Below are positions 42,848 through 64,000 of a DNA stretch of 64,000 bases, one piece after another. Both the position numbers and the translations under genes were made by a program. The notes beneath the pieces were generated by a model. That model ran no database searches. It had not been told where the DNA came from and saw only the letters and a list, made by a program, of their open reading frames with translations. Within the stretch, counting starts at the first letter, position 1, and each line of letters opens with the position of its first letter. Origin of the DNA: Siphonodentalium dalli (taxonomy: Eukaryota > Mollusca > Scaphopoda > Gadilida > Siphonodentaliidae); assembly GCA_032622095.1 (NCBI GenBank), contig CP136067.1:136155990-136219989 (forward strand), written 5' to 3'.

Positions 42848-45545
42848 TTAATTGTGATCTGAGAATACGTTCGAGATGATCCGAACGAAAGAACAAATTC
42901 TGCGTAGTAATATGGGATTCTTCATTTTGAAAATTTCATTTATCGCGGTAGCATTTATTCGTCTACGATATTTTGGTTGTAAAAAGCGTTTTCTTACATC
43001 CGTAAAGAACTCACATTCCAATAAATAATGAAATTAATCACCAATGTATTTGTGACACTTTGGGCATATTATGTCAGCGATATCAATATTATTCCATCGC
43101 CCCGTCTCTATAGGTAGCTGGTGGTTACATGTACGGAATCTGCATAATGTTAACCGGTTTCTGGTATCAAGAATGCTCAAGTAATCTTCAAAATTGATAT
43201 CTTGTTTGAACATTTTGTATATAATTTCCCTACTGCCCGAAGCCTCTAGATAATTTTTCCATTTATTACGGAATCTACAAATAAGGTTGCACTCAATGTA
43301 TGAGAGTAATCGATCAATACAGAGAATTTTACCTATATCCATTAAGTGGATGTGACCACATTCTGTTAAAGTTTGCTTAACTTTGTTTATCCACGTGAAA
43401 TTAGAGGATGAGATATTACTGAGTTTTAGCGCCGACATATATAATATTTTACAATATCTATTACAATTCATATTTACTACTTTCAACCAGTACTTCACCA
43501 CGCGCATGTTTATTAATATATCAATTGGCATACGGCCGCTCTCTTCATACAACATATAATTGCATGTGGATGGTTTTAGCCGTAAAATAAACTTACAAAA
43601 TTTTCTATGTATATTCTCAATTATATCATTATTTCCTGTACCCCAAATTTCAGATCCATAAGCAAGTATGGGTACAACTTGTGCATCAAATAAATCAAAT
43701 TGGTCCTTTACCGACAGGCAGTGTGCTCTTAATTTGGTGATTATAGCGTACATTGCTCTAGTGGCTTTATCTACAAGCACCTTCTTTGCCTCCGTATATG
43801 AACCAGATTTAGTATGTAGTATTCCCAGGTAATTGAATTTTTTAACAACTTCAATTTCCCTCCCATTATAGAATATTTTCTCATTTTTGGAAGGCTACGC
43901 TTTGATATCAACATTATTTTAGTTTTATCGATATTAACTGTTAATTTCCAAATTTAACAGCACTTATAGAATGAATACAAAGCAGTTTGAAATTTTGCAG
44001 GTGTTTCTGCCATTATTACAGTATCATCTGCATACAAAATTACAAAAAAGTTTCATATAGATGTTCAAATTGTTTTCAATATCATCCGACAATTTTGACA
44101 GACCAATAACTCCTGTATTTGTCAGATAAGATTCCAAGTCGTTTACGTACAGTGCAAAGAGTATTGGTGAAAGATTCGCACCTTGTCGGACACCAGATAA
44201 ACATGGAAAGTAATTGGAGTGCTCATTTCCTAGTTGAACTTTGGACTTAATGTTCGAGTACATATTGCAAATGACTTTAAATATTTTTCCATTAACACCG
44301 TTAGATAAAAGTTTGTGCCATAGTCCCTGTCTCCATACTTTATCAAATGCTTTTTCAAAACCAATGAATGCACAATATAAGCTTCTGTTATATATATCTA
44401 CAGGTATGTACAGTAAAAGTTATCAAAGGGAGAAAGATCAATGATTCATATGTACCTAGTAATTTCTGTCAGCATGTGAAGAACAAAGATATTATCAACT
44501 GTGGAATATCCTTTTCTGAAACCGGATTGATTTTCTTTCATTACTTCATGTTCTTCTAGATATGTGTTGATCCTATTTGATAATATTTTGGTAAATAATT
44601 TCCCAAAACAACTGAGTAAAGTAATTGGTTTATAGTGTTTAGGGTAACTTGAATCTCCTTTATTTTTATATATGGGAATAATGGTTCCAATTCCCCAGGA
44701 ATCAGGTATACACCCAGAATCCAAGACTAGATAATTTTTTTTACAGTATATGTCTTTAAGTGTATCAGCCGAGGCTTTTATAAATTCATTTAATATTCCG
44801 TCATCTCCAGGTGATTTATTATTACTGAGACTATATAGCGATCGCGATTTTTATTTCCTCGTCTGTAATAGGTTTGTTAAGTGTGTCATTCCCATGCGTA
44901 GTTGTATCATCAGTAGCCAATTTGGGATCGTTTGTGTAGGTTATGGCATTTATTTCTCGGAAATAATTCTCAAGATCTTTTATTTGTAATAAACTGTCTG
45001 TTAGTTTTCTTTTCTTATTCAATATAGACAAAAAATTTCTCGAGTCGCCCTTTTTAAGTTTAGTCATTTCACCAGATATCTTTTCTCTGTGATATCTCAT
45101 GGCATTATCCATTGTAATCTTGTATAGTTTAGCTGTTTCACGCGCTACGTTTCTAGTCAAATTATTACTTTTAGACCTGTTGTTTCGTTCTGCCTTTCGG
45201 TATTCCTTCCTGGTTAGTTTACACGCTGGGTTAAACCAATGCTTGTTAGATGTTCTATATCTATTTTTCTTTATGTTACTTACTTGTCCCAGTCCAAATG
45301 TTTTATCTGCAGAATTATGAATTACATGTGTTAATTTTGATACAACATCGTTTATCTCTGTACAGCTAGGATAATCAGTTTCGTGTTTATAGATGGTCTG
45401 TCGTATAGCATCGATATCATCTGGGTCTAAATTATATACAAATTCAATATATTTTGTGCGATCCCATCTACGCCTAGGTCGGTTTTTATGCGAGTCATAA
45501 TTTCTTCGTGCTTAATTGAATCGATTAATATCTCAGATATCCAAT
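42848..45545 (-). pseudogene. 5'-truncated, frameshifted LINE (non-LTR retrotransposon) ORF2
   Basis: On the minus strand one ORF2-type protein can be followed in pieces: a post-endonuclease linker (45,545-44,831, with ARETAKLYKITMDNAMRYHR); reverse-transcriptase fingers (44,724-44,446, with YRPITLLS-like KHYKPITLLSCFGKLF and SGFRKGYST); palm motif GVRQGANLSPILFALYVNDL (from ~44,200); catalytic YADD at 44,034-44,023; thumb and C-terminal domain (43,780-43,034, with YGSEIWG, LCRFRTCNHQLP and ICPKCHKY). Across the edge of copy B the frame continues as FHYLLECEFF to a stop at 42,848, with a TAA at 43,034-43,036 where E is expected. Several frameshifts and stops make it dead. The endonuclease domain is missing. 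Clade not certain (jockey/CR1-like group). Confidence 0.85.
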
Positions 45546-46129
45546 CAGTGAACAACACGTTATTTTGTGACTTAAGACACTGTAGTCATGTATCGACATC
45601 GACCATGTACTTCGACCACGTGGTCACTGTATTTATCGTTTATTCAATATCTTGACTCATATCATTAATATAAACAAATGAGGCCAACGGTTTTTCGGCT
45701 TTTTGACAGCAAATCAATCTAATGGGTCATACATTACCGGTATTTATTTAAAAGTACTAGGGTTTCCAGTGGGATTTCAAGGAATGCGGGAACCAAGAAC
45801 TTTTAAGCAATATGAATTTCTATGTTAGAGGATACCTGCGTGTATAATAGTTTTAAAAAGCCATGATAAACTATGAGAAAAGATGAGAATGGATTTTTTT
45901 TCATTGCAATTTTTTTCCTCGACCAAAACCGGACCCACCCCATAGTTTCAACTGTTAAAGGGAGAAATTGTGGACAAAAATAAAAACATAGAGCCCCCCT
46001 CACTTGTATAAGGCTATAGCATGCACTATTATATGAATATGATTGGTTCAATTCATTTTGAAGCTGTAATTTGTCTTAGAAATGAGTTTGGAAAAAAATT
46101 GCATGACAAACAAAAAATCTGCATTCCGG
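45546..46129. other. No recognisable feature
   Basis: Short frames only. The 5' truncation point of the LINE lies near the left edge. Confidence 0.4.
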
Positions 46130-46205
46130 GCTCGGGGACACCCACCCACCCGGTCCTTGTATCCAGTAATTATTTTCCGACCCCCCTGGTATTATATGTA
46201 GTAAT
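46130..46205 (-). repeat. Fragment of the G/C-rich dispersed repeat
   Basis: In reverse complement it reads GGGGGGTCGGAAAATAATTA, then CTGGATACAAGG and GGGTGTCCCCGAGC, matching 26,402-26,470. Confidence 0.6.
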
Positions 46206-46263
46206 CGTCATGCGCCAGGCGTCATGGGATGGGGGGGGGGGGGGGGGTCGATCAGAATTACCG

Positions 46264-46656
46264 TTAACCCTTTACCCAACAAACCGGCCAAAACCGGCCA
46301 AATAAAGCTTCAACAGCCTAAAATATCTTCGGTCTGTCTCAATATACAAATATGGATATCATTGGAACGGCTCCTTGACCACATTGTGATAGTTACAGTT
46401 ATGCCCTGTGCCAATGCATTCTCTTATATATGCGAGTCGACCATAGGTCGCCTCGCATATATAAGAGAATGCATTGGCCTAAAAAAAATCTTTTTTAAAC
46501 ACTTTTTACCATTTTTTCTTACATTCTTTAACAATTTTATAATTTTTAATGTGTTAAGCCAATCCATTCTCTTATATATGCGAGGCGACCTATGGTCGAC
46601 TCGCATATATAAGAGAATGCATTGGCACAGGGCCGTTCTGTTGGGTAAAGGGTTAA
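46264..46656. mobile_element. piggyBac-like MITE with nested hairpins
   Basis: Flanked by TTAA at 46,264-46,267 and 46,653-46,656; the ends are CCCTTTACCCAACA and its exact inverse. TTAA duplication with CCCTTT-type ends is characteristic of piggyBac elements. Inside are two ~72-bp near-perfect palindromes (46,406-46,477 and 46,557-46,628), each built from GCCAATGCATTCTCTTATAT-type arms around CGACCATAGGTCG-like centres and in mutually inverted order, so the whole element is a palindrome of palindromes. The spacer is T-rich. No coding capacity. A one-arm fragment lies at 2968-3012. Confidence 0.85.
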
Positions 46657-47480
46657 CACGTTACATCGGTCAAAAGTAAGTAAACACACAGGTAGCAACG
46701 AGTGTTTAGAGTCAAAATATGTCGTGGACTATATATCTTCCATGAGAACAACAACATATTCAACAGAACTAACCCGAAACGGAACAATTCCTATCTCAAG
46801 GGTGTTCACTGTGAATATCGCAGCGTCAATCGTATATACAGGATAATAACAAGTCAATAACATACAAAACAAGAAAACCAATATCAGAAATGTAATGCGC
46901 TCAAGATCATATATTATATACCCATGATTGTAATTATAGAATATAAAATATATTGGTTTTGCGAATGACAAACTCAGAATTCCGTTAAAATAACAATAAC
47001 AACCAGCACCTAATTAACGAACCGGCGGCCGACTCAATCGTCTCCGACCACAACCCCCATGCAGTGGGCTGCAGAACGAATAATGTCTATAAAATTTGAA
47101 ATATAAGACTTACAAATTATCTTTTTCATTTCTTTTATTTGTAATTGGCATATATAGCTTATCACAAACCAAAAATCAACATTATTGACATAATGTTAAC
47201 GACAATAAACGAAATTGAAATTCCCAACTACAACTTTTACCGGACTCGGCCTCCGGTCGCAGTTCGATTTTTAATCCTCCCAAAAATTCCAATTCTATAA
47301 ATAAAACACCCATGCGCCCAGGCGAAACAGGAATATCTACATTAGTATACACGCTGAGCTCGCGTAATACTCATTATTGGAATGCATATATTGTGGGGAA
47401 TATCATGCTGCCGCATAACGCAGCCGGAATCGAGAGCTATTCGTTACCCGTACACGTGATGGCATCATGGAATCTTTTTG
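46657..47480. other. No gene recognised
   Basis: AT-rich, with a more G/C-rich patch at 47,010-47,070. No family resemblance seen in the short frames. Confidence 0.4.
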
Positions 47481-47486
47481 TTCTCA

Positions 47487-48190
47487 TTATGTATGTCTGT
47501 ACTGCATTAAATATTGGTTTGTTTTCGCAAAGGCTAAACTCTCTTGATCCCAACAACAGAGTGTTCTCATATAGGATAACGTTGGGTAGGGAGTCATATG
47601 GTTCTCTTCTGGGCTCTTAATAAAATTTAATCTTAACGAGATAGTGGATGTTGACTCAATTCCCCAAATAAACATTAGGGGTTATATTTTACATGCTTAT
47701 CTGTCAGGTCACCGCTCAGGTGGCTGCAGTTCAGATTTAACCGGGTATGAACGATATGAGAGTTACGGCATTTACTATGATACAAATAGACAGATGGGCG
47801 TCTATTGTCATGGATGAGTTTCTTTTTGAAGTCTTCGGGTGTTCTGCTGCTCTTTATAGTTTCCGACAGTTTGTTCCATTCATTAATTGCAGCTGGTAAG
47901 AACTAATCCATATAATAGTCATAGTTAATATTCAGGGGTAGTCTTATATGTTCAAACCTGAAGTTATATCTCGAATTGCTTGCCTGAATTGGTCGTACGT
48001 AATTTCTTAAAATTGATGTCCATCATGGACAGCAGATATTAACATGTCTTGTCAATTCTGTAATCGCACAGGCAATATCTGACCCAATTCAATAGAGCGG
48101 TTCAGCAAAACTCATAAATTCTCCGTGTTGATACATGTAACTGGCACCCATATATTGTCACAGCAGCCTGGGTAACTTTATCACAAGTTT
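47487..48190 (-). pseudogene. LINE ORF C-terminal fragment
   Basis: Minus-strand pieces in shifting frames read like the C-terminal domain of a non-LTR ORF2: AAINEWNKLSETIKSSRTPE (~47,895-47,835), DFKKKLIHDN, HTRLNLNCSHLSGDLTDK (~47,755-47,700), a FIWGIESTS segment in place of the usual CxCG..E..H finger, then FAKTNQYLMQYRHT near the end (47,487). Stops and frameshifts are frequent. It differs in sequence from the other LINEs here. Confidence 0.65.
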
Positions 48191-48433
48191 CTGTTCTTCA
48201 TTCAACAGATAGATAATATCGTGCATTATAATTATATGCACTTACCACCGACTCTCGGTTTTGCGGGCACAATATGTGCATGGTTACGGGGGTTTGTTAA
48301 TTCACACTGTACGCAGTGGACATTTATAGTCTGACGTCTCATTGGCCGAACACTGAGTATTTGAGTTTTATTGTCGGACACCGCCAGGACACGTAGTCAA
48401 CAAATCAACTGCATGTTTTCACCTTTTTTGCCA

Positions 48434-48600
48434 CAGTAGGGGGGGGGGGTGTCAGGAAATATTCCAGGATATAAGGTTGTAATTTTTGTTTTATTTAATT
48501 ATTGGGGGCCAGCACCCCGGGAAGGTAAGTTTCCTCTTGTCATATCACGGACACCAACCCCTTCATCGAAAGTTGTTCCCAAGGCAAAATAGGAGGAATA
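48434..48600 (+). repeat. G/C-rich dispersed repeat, diverged copy
   Basis: G-run, GTCAGGAAATATTCCAGGAT, ATAAGG, GGGGGCCAGCACCCCGGGAA, GGTAAGT, CACGGACACCAACCCC, in the same order as 26,402-26,590. Confidence 0.6.
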
Positions 48601-50200
48601 AAATGTATTAAATAACTATGCGGATGAGATGCCAATCATTCATAACGAGAAGCACCAAAAAGATCAGAAAATCCCCCAACACACGGGAATTAAACTTGTC
48701 GAAAATGTTTCAGCATCCATACCCACAGGTTAGGCACATCATCGTTCAGTATATATATGCGATTCGATCCACAATTTATGATGGGATGAACAACTTCAAC
48801 TCTGTATTTAGTCTTCAAATCGAACTTGGCAGAGTGCCAATGAAGTGACTGATTGCCCGGGGGGTGCTTTTTTATTCCTAGATGTGACCGAACGTCTTAT
48901 TTCTAGACGAATTCTTTGGTTAAAATAACACAGAAAATGGCGTAATGTGGAATTTGTGCATGAGTGTCATGGACACATAGCACGTACGAAAAACAGAAAA
49001 TTTAATCCAAAGAGTTCTATCTCCAAAGTATTTTTCGTGATTACACCCACAATATCATACCTGTCGTCTCGATACTCGTAATAGTGTTTTTACAGCAGCT
49101 ATGCACCCGCCATGTACCGGTACTATATTCCATATATCTAAATGACTAACACGAATACATCAAGGTGGGTGTAACGGTTTCAACTTGCAAACAAATCGAA
49201 ATTCGGACACCGGCTTTTACCTGGAACTTCTCCCGCTGTTATATACCGACGATACCATAATTATATCGAACACAAATAATAACTAACAATAACTCCAACA
49301 ATAACTAATTAAATTCGCAGAATAGTGCGATATTTGGAAGGTGAAAAAACCATTTCGAAAACAATGTTGTAATATTCGGAAGTCGCACGAAAAATAAGGA
49401 GGCACAATTCAGTTTAAATTCAGAAGAAAATAGAAATTGTAAACAACTATATATACCTCTGATCGAGGTTGGACACGTTATATTTGATTATGAGCGGGTG
49501 GTTACGCGGGTACGAATTCTCAGTAGTGTTAGGATAGTGTCATTTGTCACGAATGAGAAGAAGTTTTCTAAAAAAAAAAATGTATCCCCTTACAAAGCTG
49601 GTGTTTCGCCGGGGTTTATTATTTTTCTGAGACGGCTTCAATCGACAGATGTCTTAATCGGGCCCTGTGATGGCTGAACAAAACTTAAAATATGCTGTGG
49701 ATGTTCTTCATTCCATTTATATATCAGCCATACTGCAGCCATATATATGTTATCAAATAATAAAAAAAACTAAAGCCGTTGACCATCAGGAGTGATTTCA
49801 GAGAAATATCCGATGATGTTACTCAAATGTTCCGTTCTAGAGTTATTCCTCTCTTATTTCTACCGTATGTATGTGGTTGGTTCGAATTTGCCGATAACCA
49901 TGGAAGTTTCCAAGAGTAGGAGATGTCGGTCCTTCGGTGGTGCAGCTGGAAATTCAAATATGATCGGATAGAGTTATCACACAAATGATCCATTACACTC
50001 AGCTTCCGAACATCCAACCGTTATGTTACCACACGCCTTTCCATTACTTTTACATTAAACATATTTTAATGTATCTAGAAAGATAGTATACATAGGGATC
50101 GAGGCACAAGTTACAAACGTCGGATTTCAAGTCGGATATTGTTATTGAACCAAATTTTGTCTTTCGACCGTTTGTCTTTCGACCGTATCCTAACTGTAGT
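48601..50200. other. No gene recognised
   Basis: 1.6 kb of AT-rich DNA with no frame above 76 residues that I recognise. Near 50,155-50,190 the word GTCTTTCGACCG is repeated directly. Confidence 0.4.
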
Positions 50201-50204
50201 TTAT

Positions 50205-50485
50205 GGTATAGTGATTCGCATTATTTCAAAGAATTTGACATAGAAAAATTGCACGAAGTTATCAATGTCATTCTCAATCTGGAGGAGATTGTCCCAATTT
50301 ACATCATTTATTAAAATTGCCGTTATTTGGAAGTCGCCGCGATTATAGTTCCATATGTTCCTTTGGAAAGAAGGGGTGGACAGTTTATCAACATTTAATT
50401 AGATGGTCGCATAAACACCTAAGTGGTCCGAAATGTCTAAGTAAAGGATGTCGGCATCCCGCACTTGGATGCCAGGGCTTATAAT
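50205..50485 (-). pseudogene. LINE endonuclease C-terminal fragment
   Basis: On the minus strand the reading gives YLDISDHLGVYATI, where SDH matches the conserved catalytic SDH of apurinic-type LINE endonucleases. It then has an in-frame TAA, followed by NVDKLSTPSFQRNIWNYNRG and NVNWDNL, typical of the linker after that domain. It is head-to-head with the + strand LINE that starts ~30 bp away. No complementary reverse-transcriptase part adjoins it. Confidence 0.7.
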
Positions 50486-50516
50486 GATGGGCCCAAACCA
50501 AAATCGTCGCGGATGT

Positions 50517-52322
50517 ACATGTAGCAGTTATTTGTATTTAACAAATAGAATGCAAGCAGTAGATATATATGGTACTCTATCCAAATTTGAACGTATCACC
50601 TGTGGTGTCCATCAAGGATAAATCTTAGGCCCCCTTCTTTTCCTACTCTATGTGAACGATGCTAGCCAGGCTGTGGATTGTCACCTCCTTCTATATGCGG
50701 ATGACTCTGCCCTTTTGGTTTCAGGTTGTGATGTCCGCGCTATTGAGCAGAGGCTCAGTTCAGAAATGAATAAACTGAAATTATGGTTGGTTGACAACAA
50801 ATTGTCCTTACATTTAGGGAAAACAGAATCAATTCTGTTTGGGTCTGGAAAGAAACTTGTAAAACACTCTGAACTGAGGGTCTGCTGCGATGGCGTTGAC
50901 ATCGCACCAACTAAATCTGTTAAATATCTGGGGGTGTTCCTCGATCAGAGGCTAAATGGTGAAATGATGGCAGAGCATGTTCTAAGTAAGGTAAATGCAA
51001 AACTGAAATTTTTGTACAGAAAAGCAAACTATCTGAATGAAAAATGCAGAAAACTTCTAATTAATGCTCTTATTCAATGTCATTTTGACTACTCAAGTGG
51101 TTTTTGGTTCTCTAGTCTGACAGTAAAAACCAAAAAGCGTCTTCAAGAATCTCAAAACAGACTTGTCAGATTTATCATGAAACTAGATCGCATGACTCAT
51201 ATTGGTTATAATGAATTTAAACATGTTAAATGGCTTCCAGTGAGTGATAGGGTAGACTTCAGAAAAATACTGATGGTACTAAAAATCTCGGAAAAGAAAG
51301 CTCCAGCATATCTAGATAATAATTTTATATTAGCTAGTACTCATTGTACATATGTAACTCGATCAGGGACCCTGAAATACTCATTACCCTCTGTAAAATC
51401 CAAGGGCATCCACAGTTTCTATTATACAGGAGCGAAACTGTGGAATGGTCTAGATAAAGTATACCATACTCGTGCCCCTTTTGATCTCAAACACTGGAAA
51501 ATTTGCATTAAACAACACCTACTAGAGAAATTGATGAACAGAGAAGAAAATCCATTTGCCTTTTACTAGGAACAATCTATTTTATCATCTTTTAACTAGA
51601 ATTTCCTCAATACAGCAGTTCAAGTTATATGGTAATGTACGATGACAGTATTTGGCCAGTTGCATATATTGTTACTGCTGCCTGTATTTCGGGTTTCCAT
51701 CTTTCGGTCATGGACAGACCAGTCCAAAGCCGGCCATACATGGCAGTGGTGCGTATATGCAGGTGGCGAAGGGCTGTTGAAGTTACATTACTTGCGTATT
51801 GACTTATTTTATTAGCTTTTCCTCTCCATATAAGTCTCGTTCTGAAATGGCTTTTATTTAATTTATATTCTAAATACTTTTATACATTGTCTTCCGAAGT
51901 TTCGAACTTCACTCACTGCCCATGTACCGAAAGCCACCAGGGACCGCAATGGAATTAAGTTCTCATTTAGAGAACTTTTTGCGTTATCCCTGATGGTCTC
52001 AGGTCACATGAGTATTTCTATTTTTATACAGATTTCTGCCACATAATTTACCTATATTCTGACGGCAACCTCTATAAAATAAAATGAATTAATTTTTGAG
52101 AAAATTGATATATCCTCTTACGGTATATATCAATTATTTACACAGTCTGAACTCTAACTGTCTCATCAACATATAACATATTTATATTTAATATAAACTA
52201 TTATAATTATAATATGTATATATTGTTGTGTATTATATTGATTCAACTTGTAAACATACCCATAATATGTATTCATGTAAACCTGAACTATCAAAATAAA
52301 ATCTAATCTAATCTAATCTAAT
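50517..52322 (+). pseudogene. 5'-truncated LINE: reverse transcriptase C-terminal half, 3' UTR and tail
   Basis: The frame enters at ~50,517 (YLYLTNRMQAVD), meets a TAA at 50,619-50,621 where the GVPQGSILGP motif should have S, then runs open to 51,569 with YADDSALL (catalytic aspartates), NKLSLHLGKTESILFGS, KYLGVFLD and a long C-terminal domain ending NPFAFY. The 305-residue ORF opens at a GTG, not an ATG. The 3' UTR (51,570-52,300) contains a block shared with 19,790-19,870. The element ends in (TCTAA)n at 52,302-52,322, as CR1/L2-type LINEs do. One clear stop and 5' truncation make it inactive, but the open frame suggests a recent insertion. Confidence 0.85.
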
Positions 52323-52439
52323 TCTTCTTCTTCTTTCTTCTTCCGATTTCAGTCCACCATCAACAGGCTGATGATTATGACTAATTTATTTTGGCAACGA
52401 CTGGCGATAATTTCTCTTCATGATTAGGGTTTGTGATAA

Positions 52440-52830
52440 AATAATTGATTTGATTTGAATTTGATTTGAATTTTTTGTTTTTGTTTTTTTGTTTTGTTTT
52501 TTTGTTTTTTTTGAATTTGGAGGTCATGATTAGTTGATTGGATTCTTTACTGGGTCGATTGGGTTTTCTGGGACGTCCAGCTTGGATATAGTTGGTTCAT
52601 CATCCTGGTCCTGAACTCATCGACTGGAATGATGGTGACTATTTCTGTTGGTATAGCATTCCATTCTCTTATGGTCCGGGGAAAGAAAGAAAATTTATGG
52701 TAATCGTAGTTGGATTGTGGAATTAGGTAGCCAACCGCATTAGTGTGCCTGGATTCTCTTGTTCTTTTAGCACATTCATCAATTTTTATTCTAGTCGGAG
52801 ATGTAGTCACATTTCTGAATGCAAAAATAA
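52440..52830 (-). pseudogene. LINE ORF C-terminal fragment with a short tandem tail
   Basis: The 87-residue minus frame (52,547-52,810) contains RTRESRHTN..YLIPQSNYDYHKFSFFPRTIREWN, ending DEFRTRMMN. FFPRTIREWN is the hallmark C-terminal motif of many non-LTR reverse transcriptases. Its 3' side ends at about 52,440 in repeats of TTCAAATCAA (read on the minus strand), consistent with a LINE tail. Upstream sequence is frame-broken. Confidence 0.75.
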
Positions 52831-52839
52831 TCCGTGGTA

Positions 52840-53140
52840 TTTTTCAATTTGGACGATGTATCAAGATAAATCCCCATAGTAGCATTACGTTTTGGGAGAT
52901 ATCTAACGCCTTTCCATCGCTTTTGGATTGATAGTTCCTGGTCTGAGCTTGGGTTTCATTTCCACAATCACGTAATACTCCATGGATTCCTCGCACAGTT
53001 TGACAAATCACAGCTATAAATCACCGATAATATATATATAAAATGTCCATTGGGCGCATATAATCTAATATTCGGCCACCAATCGTTATTTTTATAACGA
53101 TTAAAAAAAATTCCGAAGTTAGCCGAAGATTTTGTTGTAG
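52840..53140. other. No gene recognised
   Basis: Possibly further LINE remnants on the minus strand next to 52,830, but no motif is clear enough to call. Confidence 0.3.
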
Positions 53141-53146
53141 ACGAAG

Positions 53147-53218
53147 TCACGTGATCATCAGCCCGATCACGTGATTGTCACATGTAAACAGAAGCATAGC
53201 ACGTGATCGATCACGTGG
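53147..53218. promoter_or_regulatory. Four CACGTG sites in 70 bp
   Basis: Perfect CACGTG hexamers at 53,148, 53,168, 53,200 and 53,212, three of them extended to TCACGTGAT or GATCACGTG. CACGTG is the E-box core bound by bHLH-ZIP factors (USF, MITF, Myc families). No promoter or gene could be tied to it; it may equally be the centre of a decayed palindromic element. Confidence 0.4.
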
Positions 53219-53219
53219 T

Positions 53220-54700
53220 AACTCATTGACAACGCATAGATACGCGACGGCGGTATTTTAAGTTTGCATGTAGTCGATCGCGGCCTTTGAAGATTGTCGC
53301 GTTATCACACTGCGAATGCAAAACTTCGCCGAAAACATCGCCTTTCTCGTAATTTAATGTCTTTATCGTGTTATTATTACTATTATTATATGTATCGCGA
53401 TGTGTTGTTACTATAAAGCCATGCCCGTATATTATTCAGTTTTGCGCGCATTTATCTATATATAAACGCGTGCTCGTGTTTATATATATTTTTTCGTTAC
53501 CGGAATAGTCCAAGTTATATTATATATGCATATCAAGATTGCATATATACGCGAAAACTTGCACAGTTATTAGGCAATTATCATCTCGTAAACATTCCAA
53601 TTTCCAGATGCCATTAGTCGTGTGTCAATAAAGAGCGTTTCGTTTTAATTTATCGTAACGCGGTAAAACAACACAAAATTGGTTTATTGCTGTCGGATTT
53701 AATCAATTATAATCAAGTCATTCATTACCAATATGATATGATAAGTTCATTTTTCCTTGGTTATGAATCATGTATATATTTGGGCAATATGGTGTTTATA
53801 TATATTTCGGAATATTGCTTCCCCCACCCCAAAACAATCTAGCCGACTGTCACTGATGGAAATTCACTGCATCTATGCATGGTTATTGGCCTATAAAATT
53901 AGCACTCTAGCGATGCGGTCTATTGAATATCCAGGTCATAAATCGACCTCTATGTGTCAATTACGCATAACAATAGGGTTATAAAATATATAAATGTTCG
54001 CCGTGGTTCGTTTAAACATCCAATCATATATAACACTTTTTGAAGGAGGGATAATAATCCGGTTTAATATTGAATCACATATTCAAGTGCTCTTTATTCG
54101 CAATATATCGTAATAGTGAACGCTCTTTATCGTGTCAAGGTAAAGGGACTCGACTTAGAACAGTTGTTCTAGTGATTGTTTACTGATTACAACAATACAG
54201 GTCAATACATGTACATGAACTTCCGATATGCATGCTTTATATATCCTTCCATCATTGTCATAGCAATTTCCGCTTTATTAAACTCTTTTTATTCGTACCA
54301 TATTAGGAAAACTCTTAACATGGAACGCTCTTTATTGAGCCATGGTGAAGGAAATGGGGACTTAGAATAGTTGTCATCGTGAATTATTCATCAACATACT
54401 CCCCACTTTAACTGCAATTGTATGTATTCGTAACCATGACTGACTCGTCAAATTAAACGCTCTTTATCTGGTATATGTAATCGGTTTCTGATTTTGCGCA
54501 ACGAGTTTCCCACAGAAATCCTGCCAAATGTCACGTAAACGAACATCGTTTGGAAATGAATACAGCATATGCCTAACTGAGAGTCACTAGAATGAATGAA
54601 TGATTGTAAATACGGGACACTCGGGGCATATATACGGAAAATTAAAACAACATCGCGAACACGCACCCGAATAAAGTTCACATGCCGGCTCGTGTTTTTA
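53220..54700. other. No gene; cluster of CGCTCTTTAT motifs
   Basis: AT-rich. AAAGAGCG or CGCTCTTT, nearly always in the form ATAAAGAGCG / CGCTCTTTAT, occurs at 53,630, 54,121, 54,326 and 54,458, with a one-base variant at 54,088. None is inside a repeat I can otherwise define. Confidence 0.5.
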
Positions 54701-54879
54701 TAAGCTTTATACGAAAGTGTTATCTACCCCGCTCAATCGTCCCTCTATATTTTTTGTCAAAACAATACCGTAACTTTCCAAACAGCACTTAAGACAAATC
54801 ACAAGTGAAGATAACTCACCGCGCGATGACAATTCACCATGTGTACCCGCAGCCAGGGTTGGCGCTGGACCCAAATTTT

Positions 54880-54950
54880 CTCTTGCCAAAATTTTTGCCA
54901 AATGAATTTTTTTTTTGCCAAATGAAATTTTTTTTTGCCAAATTAAATCG
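54880..54950. repeat. TTTTGCCAAAT short tandem repeat
   Basis: Four units of TTGCCAAAWTK separated by T-runs. Frames across it are spurious. Confidence 0.75.
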
Positions 54951-55088
54951 AAGGTCAAATTGGGGAAAAATAAGGAAAATTAGCGTTTTTATCTTTATTC
55001 ATATAAAACGTAAATAGATACAGGTAAAATGACAACAAATCAATATTAAATGTTAATAGAAGACACAATACATTTAGACAAGCAATTG

Positions 55089-55375
55089 TCAAATACTAGC
55101 AATGGCGTCATGGAATTCAGCGACACTTTGGTGATGGGTGTACGTGGTATGTTTGTCGACTTTTAGTGCTGCCAAGTCGCTGTTACCCTGGTCGATGCAC
55201 AGTTCGTTGAGGTCACCTAATATGCTGTTGGGTAGCTGATGCTTTGCTATGAAGTAAGCATTTTTCATAGCAGCGACAACGGATTTCTCGGCTTTGACGA
55301 CGGCAGTTTTGTGGACTTCTTTCATGTTTTTTGATTCGTTGATCATTTGTACGGCAATGTTGTGAGAATTTATGC
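55089..55375 (-). CDS. Possible internal exon, ZNF862/KIAA1586-like (hAT-derived) protein
   Basis: From a TTTCAG acceptor (minus strand, ending at 55,376) an open frame reads HNIAVQMINESKNMKEVHK, then VKAEKSVVAAMKNAYFIAKH, QLPNSILGDLNELCIDQG, to a stop at 55,089. The pattern of a Lys/Glu-rich helix, then NAYFIAKHQLPN and a short hydrophobic helix, resembles the segment before the hAT-like core in ZNF862/KIAA1586-type proteins, which come from hAT transposases. A GT near 55,100 could be a donor. Upstream, ELTPENVAKVYHRKQDCSW (minus, ~55,540-55,485) may belong to another exon. No catalytic or dimerisation region follows, so it may be a gene fragment or TE remnant. The resemblance is from memory and unverified. 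Confidence 0.35.
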
Positions 55376-55579
55376 CTGAAAATTAAATATATCCACATAT
55401 ACACACAATCATTAAAATAATTTTGATGAGCTAGAAGTATTTTTATATATATATATTTTTTTAAAACATTATAAAATAATTTCCACGAGCAGTCCTGCTT
55501 TCTATGATATACTTTTGCCACGTTCTCTGGTGTTAATTCGTTTACAATCTTTGTGGCTCAATTGCCGTTAATTAATCTT

Positions 55580-56400
55580 GGATTATTTCATTTCAACATG
55601 AGACAATATATATATCAGAGCAGCTAATATTTATATTAAATCATTTTTGAACCATTACATTTAAAATAGTATCAGATAATGAGTTTTTCCATTCGAATAT
55701 TAATCCACCTCGAATTTATAGAGTTATTGTTCTTGTTGCGGGCCGCAGCTGATGTCGATTCCGGATTTTCCATCGCCATATAGGTAGACATAATTAACTC
55801 CGACTCCGATTCCCTGTTTTTAATAAGTTTACCTCGCTTGACGTCATGCGAGGTTTTGCGACGGAGATAGCCGACAACCGGTGGTGGTATTATTTATTTA
55901 TTTTTCGGCTTATTTATTACGCGATTTTTATGGGACTTGGATCATTGTGATCACAATGGGGGTGGCTTTCCGATAGAGTTTTGTTGTTTCATGAGGATAG
56001 TAATCCTTTAAGGGGGAGGTCAAGTGACCAATTTTGAATGAGGATTTCCATACAAATCTGCGGAGCAAAAGTTACAGAGCCCATACTTCTGAGTGTGACT
56101 TGATGTGGCATTGAAAACGACAGGTGTCTATCTGGCGGGTCCGCTTGGAACTTGTTCCATTATAATGTCATCACCATGCCAAGGCATCCGTGTGGCAACG
56201 ACTGTAAATAAAAATATATGTATGCGTAGTTGGAAAACATTTAACAGGACTGAATCGTCTGAATTCACGAACAACATTGGGTGTGTCTCCTGTTATACGT
56301 GGCAATAAACCCTCTCCAAACACGCAATGCATGCTATGCGTACTGGCATGCAACACTAGGTTTATAATGGTCGATAAAAGGTTTGACCAAGAAAACATTT
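55580..56400. other. No gene recognised
   Basis: AT-rich with a few G/C-richer patches (55,735-55,880). No convincing frame or repeat pair. Confidence 0.4.
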
Positions 56401-56402
56401 GG

Positions 56403-57450
56403 TCTAAATTGGTTTTTATTCGATTTTGAAAAGGACTATATCCCTATAACATATCCAAAATCCGCTAAAGTCTGTTTTGAGCATTTGCTTGTAATTCAAG
56501 ATGGCTTCCAAGATGGCTGCCATTTTCCGATAAGTCATTTCAGTGCAATTATAGTGAGGTGTGTTCCAACCGGACCCGCCAGATAGATATCTGTCATATG
56601 TATATATCTGGTAGAGATTTTGTGAAGCTAAGGCATAACGCAACTTTTGTATGCCAAAATTGGAACGCCCCGTCAAGATGGCAGCCAAAATGGCGGCCGG
56701 AAGTGGAATAATGGATATTCCAACTCAATAGTATCATAATTCTTCATTTGGCTCAAAGTGTCTGCCAAAATATGAAAAATGCTACATGTATATATTGACC
56801 CACTGTGCCATGCAACATCGTTCACGTTGTGGTTAATACACACAATTGACAATTCTGTCTTATATACATCGAATACTAACATTTCTACACCTTGGTTATT
56901 TGTTACTATTTTGACCACTGACATTACAAGAATAATTGTTTTCTATCAAAAACTTTACAACAAAATCGGCAATCTGAATTGTGACTTTTTTGTGAAATTT
57001 GATACCGCGTTCTGTAAAATCGAATTTTTTAGTGATCGGAAGGGGTGGGGACCAATGGTCAGTTAAGATGAAAAATACAAAATAAAGTCAGAAGATGAAA
57101 AATACAAAATAAAGTCATAATTCTCAACCAGTTCCAGACAGCAGAAACTGATCTTAAAAATATTAGTAAAGAACGTAAATATTTCCACTTCCGGTCGCCA
57201 ATTTGGCGGCCATCTTGGACGGGGCGATCTAATTTGGCACAAAAAGGTTGCATTATGCCTTAGCGTCACACAATTGTATACATATGCATACATATGACAC
57301 GATTTTCTCACTATCATTGCATCAAACTGACTTATCGGAAAATGGGAGTCCTCTTGGACGCCATATTGAATTACAAAAACGCTCAAAGCGGATTTTGGAT
57401 ATGTTATAGAGGATATATTCCTCTTCAAAATGGAATAAAAACAACTTAGG
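56403..57450. mobile_element. ~1.05-kb foldback element
   Basis: Arms of roughly 330-340 bp are inverted. At the outside, CTAAATTGGTTTTTATTC (left) mirrors the right end, which in reverse complement reads CTAAGTTGTTTTTATTC. Further in, CATATCCAAAATCCGC, CGATAAGT, CATATGTATA, GCTAAGGCATAA and a stretch of CGCCCCGTC, AAGATGG and GGCCGGAAGTGGA pair with their complements, ending near 56,710 and 57,180. Arms differ by ~15-20%. The centre is AT-rich. Short frames on both strands show no transposase. Target duplication not resolved. Confidence 0.75.
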
Positions 57451-58235
57451 TGTGTTTACACATTAGCCGGCTAAGATCCTATCCGCTGTAGTCGGTTACT
57501 GATAACAATAGAGTGTTTATACTTCACCGGATAAGAGTTGAAGCTATCCGGCGTTGCATCTATCCGGTTTTCATCTTCTGGACAACATGATTTAATACAA
57601 GCATATGGTTGTCGTATGGATTGTAATTCGCTCTGCAGATGTTTACCTGGTATCAAACCATCATGGACAGAGACGTGGTTAGAGGGTCTCCGTTGTGGGG
57701 GGGGGGGGGTGCCCACTTTGGGAATTCCAACTGCAACTGCACCCCCATTAAATCAGGCCAAACACAATTTTTTTCGGAATTTCATTGGTACCACCGCCCC
57801 CTTGCACCTCAACTCCCCATTACAGGACTTGCTGAACGGCTCTTGTTGCTTGTTGTCACTATAGTCAGACGGATGAAAAGAACCATGACACTATATACCC
57901 GGTATCAGAACATTTATATAATTGAACCTGACAATTGCATAAATCCTAACATTTAGTGATCTAATTGCAGACAAGTTGACACGGCCAAGAGCGAGATACC
58001 AGGAAATACCGGTCATGGTTCGGCCCAGTGTGAGAACATTTCGAAATCTGAACAAGAAAATCGCAAAATCCTAGCATCTGGACCGGCCTCAACCTTTCCT
58101 AGTGTTGTTGGAAATTTCAAACCTGACACCCCCCACTTAGGTTGGAATATTTCAAACTGATGACCATTTCAGTCCATATTTTTGATAAAATGTAGGAAAA
58201 TATTGTTCTCTTAAATTAACTAGCAGTGTTATCTA
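57451..58235. other. No gene recognised
   Basis: Contains a G-run at 57,697-57,710 and several TATCCGG words (57,465-57,570). The frames at 57,538-57,956 (+) have no recognisable domain. Confidence 0.4.
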
Positions 58236-58755
58236 TCTATACTATAATCTCATATATATTTTGAAGACCTCTGTCTGTCTGTTTGTCTGTTTGTCTGTTT
58301 GTCTGTAATTTATACATCTACGATTCTCTACCGATCGGGACGAAACTTGGTACGTGTGTGTAGTTTGACCAGGCGGTGGACGTTGTCGTATTGGCGAGCC
58401 CGTGTGGCGCCCGTGCAGCGCATGCGCAGACGAGATCTCGGAAACGGGTGGAGCTATCGACTTGAAATTTGCTACGTGAATGTATCTTGCCCCGGATACG
58501 AATTTTATCGGATCGCCGAGCCCGTACGACGCCAGCTTCGCGCATGCGCAGACCAGATCTCGGAAACGGGTGGAGCTATCGACTTGAAATTTGCTATGTG
58601 AATGTATCTTGCCCCGGATACGAATTTTATCGGGTCGCCGATCCCGTGCGACGCCAGCTTCACGCGTGTGCAGACCAGATCTCGGAAACGGGTAGAGCTA
58701 TCGACTTGAAACTTGGTTTTTGAATAGCCCGGACAACGTCGGGCTCATCGGCTAG
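58236..58755 (+). mobile_element. Helitron 1 (non-autonomous, 520 bp)
   Basis: Starts TCTATACTATAATCTC after an A and ends GGCTAG before a T, the A|TC...CTAG|T arrangement of Helitrons. A GCCCG-GACAACGT-CGGGC hairpin (58,727-58,744) lies 11 bp before the end, as expected for the 3' terminator. After the 5' end come (TGTCTGTT)n and the word CGGGACGAAACTTGGTACGT. It carries about three units of a 122-bp satellite. No Rep/helicase gene, so it moves only with outside enzymes. Confidence 0.85.
58434..58700. repeat. 122-bp satellite within Helitron 1
   Basis: GATCTCGGAAACGGGT recurs at 58,434, 58,556 and 58,678, exactly 122 bp apart. Each unit also has GAGCTATCGACTTGAAAYTT, CTTGCCCCGGATACGAATTT and GCGCATGCGCAGAC. 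The same unit occurs in Helitrons 2 (59,720-59,850), 4 (61,660-61,945) and 6 (63,590-63,860). Confidence 0.9.
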
Positions 58756-58763
58756 TCTATCTA

Positions 58764-59960
58764 TCTATACTATATATTTTGAGACTTCGTATATATGTGT
58801 GTGTGTGTGTGTGTACTTCATAGAATCCAAAACGCGTGTAAAGATTGAGCTCAAACTTCCTATGTAAGTGTCAAATCGCACCGACACGACCGTGGTCAAG
58901 GTTTAGAGAAGCTCAGAGCACCCGTTCTCCAATCTCAAATCACCGCAAAGGCACGGCGGGGGTTAATCAAGTGATTATTTAGTGAGCGTTTGTTTTTGAC
59001 GCATCTCTATAAAGAGCGTCTGTTTGCCATTCAACGTTATTTGCATCTGCAGAGAGATATACGGAACATACATTAAATTTAAAAAACATTTGTTTCTGAC
59101 CAACCCTGCGAGCACGGATGGCGCGCTTTGTTTTTACAGTATATAGTTATATACCGAAATCATCCCAGATAATCACGAATATAGCATCAGATTTCTCCCC
59201 AGATATATCGTTATAAAGCTACTGGAATCTGCCAATCTACGGGAAATTCCAGGGAATGCCGATTGAGCTCAAACTTGCTACCCACGTTAAGTGTCATATA
59301 TATGAGTGTGTCCTTTATAGACTCGAACCGATTGAGCTCAAACTTGCTAAATAAGAAAATAGCCCCCAAGCCGTAAATATCAACAACAACGATATTGCTA
59401 CCTACGAGGAGCAACGTTATTAGCATCTGCAGAATTATGCAGAGAGAAAGTGCTTTCCTATTTTTAGAACGCAACACATGTTTACGTCGCGTTGGTGATT
59501 GAGGTTCACAACGGGGTTAATTGACTGTCCGCTCTTTGCGACGATGAGGTTCACGGCGGGGACTATTGACCAACACTCACAATTTCGTCTTTTGCATCAG
59601 ATGCCAACACCTCGACCGATCGGGACGAAACTTGGTACGTGAGTGTAGTTTGACCAGGTGGTCGTCGCTGTCGTATTGGCGAGCCCGTATTGGCATGCGC
59701 AGACGAGATATCGGAAACGGGTGGAGCTATCGACTTGAAATTTGGTATGTGAATGTATCTTGCGCCGGGTACACATTTTATCGGGTCGCCGAGCCCGTGC
59801 GACGCCAGCTTCGCGCATGCGCAGACCAGATCTCGGAAACGGGTGGAGCTACCGGGTACAAATTTTTCTTATTGAAACGCGTGGAGCTAAAAATTAAAAA
59901 TATATATATAAAAAAATGTCATGTTTCGGACAAGCCGCCGGTGGCGGGCTAACCTGCTAG
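58764..59960 (+). mobile_element. Helitron 2 (non-autonomous, ~1.2 kb)
   Basis: Starts TCTATACTATATATTTTGAG and ends CCTGCTAG, with a CCGCC-GGT-GGCGG hairpin (59,935-59,947) 13 bp before the end. Contains a (GT)n run, a GATTGAGCTCAAACTTCCTA block, AAAGAGCG at 59,011, and about one and a half 122-bp units near its 3' side. Follows Helitron 1 with only TCTATCTA between. Confidence 0.85.
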
Positions 59961-61121
59961 TCTATACTATATATTTTGAGACTTCGTATATATGTGTGTG
60001 TGTGTGTGTGTACTTCATAGAATCCAAAACGCGTATACAGATTGAGCTCAAACTTCCTATGTAAGTGTCAAATCGCACCGACACGACCGTGGTCGTGGTT
60101 TAGAAAAGCTCAGAGCACCCGTTCTCCAATCTCAAATCACCGCAAAGGCACGGCGTGGGTTAATCAAGTGATTATTTAATGAGCGTTTGTTTTTGACGCA
60201 TCTCTATAAAGAGCGTCTGTTTGCCATTCAACGTTATTTGCATCTGCAGAGAGATAAACGGAACATACATTAAATTTAAAAAACATTTGTTTCTGACCAA
60301 CCCTGCGAGCACGGATGGCGCGCTTTGTTTTTACAGTATATAGTTATATACCGAAATCATCCCAGATAATCACGAATATAGCATCAGATGTCTCCCCAGA
60401 TATACCGTTATAAAGCTAATGGAATCTGCCAATCTACGGGAAATTCCAGGGAATGCCGATTGAGCTCAAACTTGCTACCCACGGGAAGTGTCATATATAT
60501 GAGTGTGTCCTTTATAGACTCGAACCGATTGAGCTCAAACTTGCTAAATAAGAAAATAGCCCCCAAGCCGTAAATATCAACAACAACGATATTACTAAAT
60601 ACACGTTTTCGGCAATGTGAGAGTTTTCGGGGAGCCGTGATGCCAACAACAACGACCCGAAGCCCTGAATGCCAACAACAGATTCAATGCAATGTTATCT
60701 ATTATGCAGAGAGACGACATTACGACGGGTACGGCAGACTCAAAATATTATGCAGACAGATTTCCCGACGGGAAGCGTTTGTTTTAAATTCAATGCAATG
60801 TTATCGTAGAGAGATTTCACGAAACAAAGAATGCGTTGTCTGTCGTTCCTAGGAAGGGGGGATTTCTACGGGTAAATTTTTCCGCCAGAAACAAAAAAAT
60901 TAATTAAAACAATTTACAATTTAATTAAAACAATATAAAATTAAAAAAAATTAACAATAAAAAAACAATTCAGAAACAAAATATATTGAATTTAAAAAAC
61001 ATTAAATTCATATTCAAAAATAAAAAACCAAAATAAATAAAAACAAAATAATTACAAAAATGTCATGTTTCTGAAACAAAGCCATGGGACGAATGCCGCC
61101 AGTGGCGGGCTAACCTGCTAG
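59961..61121 (+). mobile_element. Helitron 3 (type alpha, 1161 bp)
   Basis: Its TCTATACTATATATTTTGAG start directly abuts the CTAG of Helitron 2. The first ~600 bp match Helitron 2 closely. The 3' part is different: an A-rich tract (60,880-61,060), then CATGTTTCTGAAACA and a GCCGCCAGTGGCGGG hairpin before CCTGCTAG at 61,118-61,121. No 122-bp unit. Confidence 0.85.
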
Positions 61122-61125
61122 TCTA

Positions 61126-62016
61126 TCTATACTATATATTTTGAGACTTCGTATATATGTGTGTATGTGTGTGTGTGTGTACTTCATAGAATCAAAAACG
61201 CGTGTACAGATTGAGATCAAATTTCGTATGTAAGTGTAAAATACCACCGACACCGCCGTAGTCGTGTTTTCGAGAAGCTCTGAGCACCCTTTATCCACTC
61301 CCAAATCACCGCAAAGGCACGGTGGGGGGGGGGGGGGGGGGGGGGTTAAGGCAAAAACGCTCTTTATCTATACCTTATACGGAGGTTTTAACAATTAACG
61401 CTCTTTATTGCAATGGACGTGGCTAAACGATACCCCATGCGTCCGATGCGGATTCCAATGGACGTGGCTAAACGACTGACCCCATGCGTCCGAAATACGG
61501 ATGCGGACGAAATGCAACTAAAAAGTCAGAATTGATCTAAGTGCTCGAAATATTATGCAGAGGGATTTCACGACGGGATTAATTGACTGTCCGCTCTGAA
61601 GTTTAGGACGGGGAGGACGGGTACCATGAATTAACTCATTGAAAAACAAAGAATGCGTTATCTCGCAAACGGGTGGAGCTATCGACTTGAAATTTGCTAT
61701 GTGAATGTATCTTGCCCCGGATACAAAATTTATCGGGTCGCCGAGTCCGTGCGACGCCAGCTTCGCGCATGCGCAGACGAGATCTCGGAAACCGGTGGAG
61801 CTATCGACTTGAAATTTGGTATGTGAATGTATCTTGTCCCGGGTACGAATTTTATCGGGTCGCCGAGCCCGTGCGACGCAAGCTTCGCGCATGCGCAGAC
61901 CAGATCTCGGAAACGGGTGGAGCTATCGACTTGAAATTTGGTTAAATTAAAAAAATGTCATGTTTCTGAAACAAAGCCATGAGACGAATGCCGCCAGTGG
62001 CGGGCTAACCTGCTAG
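61126..62016 (+). mobile_element. Helitron 4 (type beta, 891 bp)
   Basis: Same 5' start, with a long G-run (61,322-61,345), two CGCTCTTTAT motifs (61,358 and 61,399), ACGTGGCTAAACGA repeated, and 122-bp satellite units at 61,660-61,945. Ends with the same hairpin and CCTGCTAG as type alpha. No protein-coding gene. Confidence 0.85.
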
Positions 62017-62023
62017 TCTTCTA

Positions 62024-63086
62024 TCTATACTATATATTTTGAGACTTCGTATATATGTGTGTGTGTGTGTACTTCATAGAATCCAAAACGCGTGTACAGA
62101 TTGAGATCAAATTTCGTATGTAAGTGTAAAATCCCATCGACACCGGCGTAGTCGCGTTTTCGAGAAGCTCTGATCACCCTTTATCCACTCCCAAATCACA
62201 GCAAAGGCACGACGGGGGTTAATCAAGTGATTATTTAATGAGCGTTTGTTTTTGACGCATCTCTATAAAGAGCGTCTGTTTCCCATTCAACGTTATTCGC
62301 ATCTGCAGAGTTATACGGGAACGCAAACGTTATCGCTCGAAATTTATTTCCTGCGAGCACGGATGGCGCGCTTTGTTTTTACAGTATATACCTTCGGTAT
62401 ATACCGAAATCATCCCAGATAATCACGAATATAGCATCAGATTTCTCCCCAGATATACCGTTATAAAGCTACTGGAATCTGCCAATCTACGGGAAATTCC
62501 AGGGAATGCCGATTGAGCTCAAACTTGCTACCTACGGGAAGTGTCATATATATGAGTGTGTCCTTTATAGACTCTAACCTATTGAGCTCAAACTTGCTAA
62601 ATAAGAAATTAGCCCACAAGCCGTAAATATCAACAACAACGATATTACTAAATACTCGTTTTCGGCAATGTGAGAGTTTTCGGGGAGCCGTGATGCCAAC
62701 AACAACGACCAGAAGACAGATTTCCCGACGGGAAGCGTTTGTTTTAAATTCAATGCAATGTTATCGTAGAGAGATTTCACGAAACAAAGAATGCGTTGTC
62801 TGTCGTTCATAGGAAGGGGGGGGGGGATTTCTACGGGTAAATTTTTCCGCCAGAAACAAAAAAGTTTATTAAAACAATTTACAATTTAATTAAAACAATT
62901 TAAAATTAAAAAAAATTAACAATAAAAAAACAATTCAGAAACAAAATATATTAAATTTAAAAAACATTAAATTCATATTCCAAAATAAAAAACAAAAATA
63001 AATAAAAACAAAATAATTACAAAAATGTCATGTTTCTGAAACAAAGCCATGGGACGAATGCCGCCAGTGGCGGGCTAACCTGCTAG
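62024..63086 (+). mobile_element. Helitron 5 (type alpha, 1063 bp)
   Basis: Collinear with Helitron 3, including AAAGAGCG at 62,267, the AAATTCCAGGGAATGCCGAT block, the A-rich tract and the terminal hairpin. It is shorter by a ~100-bp gap around 62,300-62,340 and 62,710. Confidence 0.85.
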
Positions 63087-63860
63087 TACTATATATTTTG
63101 AGACTTCGTATATATGTGTGTGTGTGTGTACTTCATAGAATACAAAACGCGTGTACAGATTGAGATCAAATTTCGTATGTAAGTGTAAAATCCCACCGAC
63201 ACCGCCGTAGTCGTGTTTTCGAGAAGCTCTGAGCACCCTTTATCCACTCCCAAATCACCGCAAAGGCACGGCGGTGGTTAAGGCAAGAACGCTCTTTATC
63301 TATACCTTATACGGAGGTTTTAACAAGTAACGCTCTTTATTGCAATGGACGTGGCTAAACGATACCCCATGCGTCCGATGCGGATTCCAATGGACGTGGC
63401 TAAACGACTGACCCCATGCGTCCGAAATACGGATGCGGACGAAATGCAACTAAAAAGGCAGAATTGATCTAAGAGCTCGAAATATTATGCAGAGGGATTT
63501 CACGACGGGATTAATTGACTGTCCGCTCTGAAGTTTAGGACGGGGAGGACGGGTACCATGAATTAACTCATTGAAAAACATAGAATGCGTTATCTCGCAA
63601 ACGGGTGGAGCTATCGACTTGAAATTTGCTATGTGAATGTATCTTGCCCCGGATACAAATTTTATCGGGTGGCCGAGTCCGTGCGATGCCAGCTTCGCGC
63701 ATGCGCAGACGAGATCTCGGAAACCGGTGGTGCTAACGACTTGAAATTTGGTATGTGAATGTATCTTGCCCCGGGTACGAATTTTATCGGGTCGCCGAGC
63801 CCGTGCGACGCAAGCTTCGCGCATGCGCAGACCAGATCTCGGAAACGGGTGGAGCTATCG
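63087..63860 (+). mobile_element. Helitron 6 (type beta, 3'-truncated)
   Basis: Begins TACTATATATTTTGAG, having lost the first bases (TCTA) at the join with Helitron 5. Otherwise it matches Helitron 4 (ACGTGGCTAAACGA pair, CGCTCTTT at 63,290 and 63,331, 122-bp units). It stops at GGAGCTATCG, inside a 122-bp unit, without hairpin or CTAG. Confidence 0.8.
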
Positions 63861-64000
63861 TACTATATATTTTGAGACTTCGTATATGTGTGTGTGTGTA
63901 CTTCATAGAATCCAAAACGCGTGTACAGATTGAGCTCAAACTTCCTATGTAAGTGTCAAATCCCACCGACACGACCGTGGTCGCGGTTTAGAAAAGCTCA
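63861..64000 (+). mobile_element. Helitron 7 (5' end, cut by the window)
   Basis: A new TACTATATATTTTGAGACTT start directly after the truncated Helitron 6, followed by the GAGCTCAAACTTCCTATG variant found in Helitrons 2 and 3. The array evidently continues past the window. Confidence 0.8.

Follow-up and report, generated by a model that had tools for sequence, protein, structure and literature searches.

A 64,000-nucleotide stretch of the Siphonodentalium dalli genome (the window; GCA_032622095.1, contig CP136067.1, C7:136,155,990-136,219,989) ends in a head-to-tail array of Helitrons that starts at 58,232, crosses the window end, and reaches 68,677 or further. The array (elements E1-E10) is very probably a pile-up of non-autonomous Helitrons that were serially inserted into the 5' ends of like residents. 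Head-to-tail Helitrons have hitherto been taken as a sign of rolling-circle concatemers, and one junction in this array can be read both with and without its newest member. The genome comprises 2.23 Gb in nine contigs. Positions are window-relative unless a contig or a fetched locus (L numbers) is named.

Window positions 50739..64000 lie within a large segmental duplication whose other copy (copy A) is 88.7-89.9 kb upstream. The duplicated span covers at least 43,100 to 80,884 with long aligned blocks that are 99.1-99.9% identical; 43,100-50,700 is also duplicated, with 7,601 bp reported as 100% identical. Copy A contains the same array minus E5 (62,024-63,086). Once the 1,063 bp of E5 (TC...CTAG) are removed, the window array departs from copy A by 1 mismatch and one 8-bp indel in an alignment of 3,929 bp. 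At the join, copy A reads CTAG TCTTCTA^TACTATATATTTTG and the window reads CTAG TCTTCTA|TCTATACTATA...CTAG|TACTATATATTTTG, which places E5 at an A|T position four bases into the 5' end of its neighbor E6 (TCTA^TACTATA). The head of E6 in copy A has the bases of E6, not those of E5, wherever the two elements differ. The window array and copy A differ here by one whole element, E5. We infer that copy A shows the state before the insertion, and the difference reads as one Helitron insertion at A|T inside the 5' end of the resident E6.

Seven same-strand elements lie at 58,232-64,000, most of them with a CTAG end against the next TC or TCTA start. The preliminary description of this stretch had at least seven, and its reading of them as non-autonomous Helitrons that follow one another head to tail and have TC...CTAG ends and a 3' stem-loop is supported. 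The recognized element ends of the array are on the + strand throughout, the 5' ends read TC(TA)... and the 3' ends read ...CTAG preceded by a stem-loop. The with/without comparison of E5 and the empty sites at L046, a locus described below, define the 5' TC and 3' CTRR ends of canonical Helitrons (TCTATACTATA...CTGCTAG). The canonical stem-loop is present about 10 nt ahead of the 3' end, and insertion is at A|T with no target duplication, both for E5 (TCTTCTA^TACTATA) and at L046 (ATTGA^TATAAT). The stem is CCGCC/GGCGG with a 3-nt loop, located 13 nt from the 3' end in E3 and E5 and 10 nt from it in E1 and E2. Its folding is unremarkable compared to shuffled sequences in E2, E3, and E5 (27-32 of 200 shuffles as good) and better in E1 (4 of 200). 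The A|T target and the TC/CTAG ends speak against Helentron/Helitron2 (DINE, HINE) identity, as those elements are described with a T-rich target sequence and Ts flanking both ends (PMC4067079).

Copies elsewhere in the genome indicate that E5 is a mobile unit of its own that forms its own subfamily. The E5-type has at least 46 other full-length matches, 35 of which aligned over positions 1-1063, with 40 of 2,650 candidate places scored. Twenty fetched loci contain 23 E5-type elements, whose neighbors were read by eye. The 3' side is another element's 5' end in 20 of the 23, host sequence in 2 (L046 and L053), and ambiguous in 1 (L055). The 5' side is another element's 3' end in 19 of the 23; the elements that lack one are at L045 (within alpha-like sequence), L046, L047, and L053.

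The same pair of arrays would also result if copy A had once been larger and had lost E5 by precise excision or deletion. Clean Helitron excision has been proposed in maize (PMC2267711), and the private substitutions of E5 counted below outnumber those expected from the divergence between the two copies. However, homologous deletion between the E5 and E6 heads would be expected to give TCTTCTATCTATACTATA, and deletion between the E4 and E5 tails would give CTAG|TACTATA. Neither junction is present in copy A, and only an excision that re-formed the A|T site with base precision would suffice. Loss of E5 is unlikely on these grounds.

The elements fall into types (Table 1), and the preliminary description took E3-E4 and E5-E6 for successive copies of an alternating alpha-beta dimer that formed a higher-order unit through concatemers or unequal exchange. 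Neither the alternation nor the dimer unit is supported. Copy A is ordered alpha-beta-beta with no alternation, and its lack of E5 only indicates that the second 'alpha' came alone. E3 and E5 match in two blocks, one of 710 bp with 89.7% identity and one of 373 bp with 96.8%, and the closest relatives of E3 among the 23 compared are alphas on other contigs (L020 and L021, 99.5%). E4 and E6 are 97.9% identical over 774 bp, and E4 is 97.9% identical over 865 bp to the beta at L019 on contig C8. The nearest-relative tables left out copy A for the alphas and kept the E4 of copy A for the betas. By these identities and by copy A, successive units do not resemble each other more than they resemble other loci, as the units of a higher-order satellite would.

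Doubling of an alpha-beta dimer by unequal exchange after a first side-by-side insertion would account for the similar order of E3-E4 and E5-E6, and local tandem amplification does occur elsewhere, as in the four 1,159-bp units at L026 (99.9-100% identical). Some local copying or conversion is also evident in this array. At 63,860, E6 is truncated at its 3' end and meets E7 without a CTAG (GGAGCTATCG|TACTATA), and the E8/E9 join at 66,352 repeats it 2,492 bp on, with 893 bp in common at 99.1% identity. This recurrence is a local duplication or conversion. For E3-E6, however, unequal exchange is contradicted by the 89.7% and 96.8% identity of the supposed alphas, by an E4-E6 identity no higher than that of E4 with another contig, and by a copy A that misses E5 and not a dimer, which makes it highly improbable. 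Alpha-then-beta neighbors are found at L016-L019 too; these loci were retrieved with an alpha-beta query and are uninformative on the frequency of that order. Their joins differ, with two TCTA units in the window, one at L018, one and one at L019, none at L016, and a fusion at L017. The differing joins fit independent assembly and not a moving dimer. The alpha-beta dimer as a unit of duplication or transposition is rejected on the evidence of copy A, the sequence identities, and the differing joins, and the alternation looks like a coincidence of insertion order. The fusion at L017 (4179-6179) joins an alpha and a beta into one element in which the inner 3' and 5' ends are lost.

The spacers had been described as 0-8 bp of TCTA only. 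They are mostly TCTA, but the range ahead of the TACTATA core is 0-12 bp with TCTA units included, one spacer is TCTTCTATCTA (11 bp), and E6 joins E7 without a CTAG. Insertion four bases into a resident would put the resident's TCTA on the upstream side of the newcomer and leave the downstream side without one, so gaps of 0, 4, 8, and 12 bp are expected. We infer that the other junctions arose like that of E5, each newcomer adding one TCTA. A hand count of TCTA units against elements E2-E10 gives nine for nine in the window copy and eight for eight in copy A. The sampled loci contain 97 strict starts, counted with exact duplicate starts dropped, and 92 TCTA units.

The same arrangement is found throughout the genome. 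There are 10,907 exact family 3' ends and at least 4,809 junctions in which 0-12 bases separate ACCTGCTAG from TACTATATATTTTG, compared to 0 in reversed controls, and the array junctions are therefore not due to chance. TCTA is absent from 1,382 junctions and present once in 1,576. Among the first 100 listed exact 3' ends, all on C1, 42 are directly followed by a family 5' end, a count that covers TACTATATATTTTG-type 5' ends alone and not other start types. One array on C1 (C1:49029028-49036469) has junction spacings of 1301, 1118, 1302, 1301, 1118, and 1301, and from these spacings looks like a repeated three-element unit.

Rolling-circle concatemers, in which several head-to-tail units are inserted in one transposition, are a very unlikely source of the window array. 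Tandem arrays of Helitrons have been cited in favor of rolling-circle transposition (PMC5876387), and identical neighbors are found at L017 (1,143 bp) and at L022 (1,161 bp). The L022 pair consists of two alpha elements in a host repeat whose site is uninterrupted in 34 of the 40 matches listed; 2 of the other 6 are the flanks of L022 itself. A plain concatemer would have CTAG|TCTATACTATA inside and one TCTA outside. The L017 and L022 pairs have two TCTA before the first element and none between, as expected from nested insertion of a sibling. The window elements also come from different subfamilies, and E5 is present or absent singly.

Serial insertion is also consistent with the sites occupied outside arrays. 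The preliminary description had set the empty-site comparison beforehand as the test of the element ends, and at L046 the occupied form of ATTGA^TATAAT is exactly A|TC...CTAG|T. L046 is a solo insertion in a host repeat that is dispersed. Uninterrupted copies elsewhere match the joined flanks of L046, with 24 of the 40 matches listed running across the site. Three copies of this repeat were fetched and two of them read as the empty site, the third having been missed by the script's anchor. In a further copy of the repeat, on C1, the flanks of the same A|T site are about 3.3 kb apart, with the occupant at C1:158824932-158828254. Small stretches fetched at the two ends of the 3,323-bp occupant give the boundaries ATTGA|TCTATACTATATATTTTGAGAACTCC and CCTGCTAG|TATAATATAAAC, or ATTGA|TCTATACTATA...CTGCTAG|TATAAT overall. 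The occupant differs in subfamily by its start and is one different Helitron or several. Occupation of the same host site twice is a hint of site preference. A second recurrent site, GCCAA^TCTA in alpha-like sequence, is occupied at L016, L018, L020 (twice), L024, L027, and L045. Of the 114 AT dinucleotides in the alpha, two belong to ATCTA. Some of these insertions may share one ancestral event.

We hypothesize that a Rep/helicase transposase encoded elsewhere in the genome favors targets that resemble the site at which it cleaves its own left end (R^T followed by a TATA-rich tract). The 5' end of a resident would then be the best target and every insertion would re-create it, because the enzyme would accept sites that resemble the left-end cleavage site. 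In IS200/IS605 elements, which use HUH-type transposition, the target is the left cleavage site. These elements are bacterial and have no helicase, and their likeness to the array Helitrons is an analogy only. More tentatively, and with somewhat less than even probability, this is a Helitron lineage that uses its own left end as its insertion specificity and forms thousands of polar, self-renewing arrays in which the TCTA count records insertion order.

Several observations weigh against serial insertion or narrow its reach. Of the 24 copies compared, E5 stands apart by 7 private substitutions, and the best relative is 98.7% identical to it, whereas the two copies of the region differ by 0-0.9% per aligned block. 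No donor for E5 was found, none of the copies compared being closer than 98.7%. The excess of private substitutions and the lack of a donor point to an unsampled donor or to two copies derived from different alleles. The two copies may be haplotypes retained in the assembly, in which case the pair is allelic and still with and without E5. The one-TCTA class, the commonest counted, equally fits insertion at an outer A^TC, a concatemer, or tandem duplication. A TCTA-less junction following a TCTA-rich one shows no significant link (10/31 versus 7/35, p = 0.20) in a test that used 86 of 100 listed junctions with 14 judged isolated omitted, neighbors less than 1,700 bp apart (40 pairs), and a selection of pairs from other loci that left out L021 and part of L017. 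One omitted pair conformed to the distance rule, and adding it gives 10/31 versus 7/36 (p = 0.18). A genome-wide TCTA rule is not established because this test is non-significant. TCTA-rich starts are likewise not concentrated where no element end was recognized (p = 0.46), a class of 20 starts that mixes host flanks with element ends missed by the script motif.

The target data have limits too. In favor of the target hypothesis, the host 3' flanks of five insertions resemble the element 5' end more than R|T sites in the window do (mean 7.0/13 versus 5.3 for 9,306 R|T window sites, resampling p = 0.008), in a comparison that covers 5 sites after two ambiguous flanks (L016 and L055) were left out and that used a score picked after the sites had been seen. 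The 3' flank of L046 recurs 2.9 kb downstream. Three fetched copies of the L022 host repeat read GGGTTAG TTTTTATATATTT, so the primary insertion at L022 was at G^T, with no target duplication. The L017 and L022 pairs are each 100% identical over the lengths given above, and L026 (3577-8205) contains four alpha units of ~1,159 bp with two TCTA each. The identity of these neighbors at all three loci points to local copying, and local tandem copying is a real second process at some loci. Finally, no autonomous element with these exact ends was found at eight PF14214 loci (L029-L036, ~1.5 kb on each side) or at L057.

Helitron Rep genes are nevertheless present, with 151 PF14214 matches in the genome and ~30 of the listed rows in open frames of >1,500 aa. 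The L029-L036 flanks contain one poor match to the loose start motif, at L036. At L057, a 2.7-kb stretch before the Rep gene has 29-38 bp blocks in common with the 122-bp repeats. A candidate place for an autonomous partner is C1:13738734-13748231 (- strand), where two exact family 3' ends 9.5 kb apart flank a Rep gene of the same strand (1,614-aa open frame, C1:13743912). The array element beside this gene at C1:13,748,231 starts like E1. Same-orientation pairs of Rep genes at C1:114628540/114638548 (10.0 kb apart) and C2:141795020/141803591 (8.6 kb apart) are possibly neighboring autonomous elements.

Consecutive insertion of adjacent Helitrons is known from maize, and scale and a with/without pair are added here. 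One adjacent pair of different maize Helitrons, CTAG against TC, was ascribed to consecutive insertion and not to tandem replication; both insertion orders were discussed, and AT is not always the site (PMC2267711). The maize pair is one locus with an unclear order, whereas the duplicate locus here gives the state without E5, the insertion lies inside the resident's 5' end, and there are thousands of junctions in one genome. The tandem Helitrons of Myotis bats (Pritham and Feschotte, described in PMC2267711) have perfect head-to-tail junctions and were read as tandem repeats, whereas the window array consists of unlike elements and one of its steps is a single-element difference. In Fusarium oxysporum, one FoHeli4 element was inserted 2 bp ahead of another's 5' terminal sequence, and composite elements were proposed to arise by self-insertion (PMC5148889). 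FoHeli4 is a single case with non-canonical ends, in contrast to the TC/CTAG ends of the window array. An insertion preference of Helitrons for the vicinity of other Helitrons has also been described (Yang and Bennetzen 2009, cited in PMC12477314), a clustering stated as nearness, whereas the target here is the exact 5' end of the resident. In the open literature searched, a search that mostly did not extend to subscription papers, we noticed no report of counts on such a scale or of a Helitron array with such a with/without pair. If serial insertion is general, Helitron arrays, and satellites possibly grown from them, would begin as target choice, and target recognition by a Helitron transposase would be directly testable with its own left end as bait.

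The elements and spacers of the array are collected in Table 1. Beyond E10 there is one more start, at a greater distance.

Table 1. Elements and spacer sequences of the Helitron array in window-relative coordinates.
Feature	Position	Strand	Description
E1	58232..58755	+	Different subfamily; 3' end GTCGGGCTCATCGGCTAG with stem-loop
Extra TCTA units	58756..58763	+	Two units 5' of E2 (three counting E2's own)
E2	58764..59960	+	Head alpha-like; tail includes part of the 122-bp repeat
E3	59961..61121	+	Alpha type; nearest relatives in the sample on other contigs, 99.5%
E4	61122..62016	+	Beta type; extra TCTA (61122-61125) ahead of its own TCTATACTATA
TCTTCTA	62017..62023	+	Left of the insertion point; reads as 5' leftover of resident E6; directly joined to E6 in copy A
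E5	62024..63086	+	1,063-bp Helitron; delta subfamily, head beta-like, tail alpha-like
E6	63087..63860	+	Beta type; resident, apparently invaded by E5; 3' truncated, without CTAG
E7	63861..64000	+	Alpha type; cut by the window end, continues to 65,007
E8	65,012-66,352		Outside the window
E9	66,353-67,523		Outside the window
E10	67,524-68,677		Outside the window

Three other features of the window lie upstream of the array. A 15-kb stretch is present in two adjacent copies at 13055-43034 that are 99.8-99.9% identical. A tandem array with an 11-bp period and a self-identity of about 98% occupies 8935-9802. An open frame at 43034-43780 (- strand) resembles, by eye, part of a non-LTR retrotransposon protein, and its region matches dozens of places in the genome.

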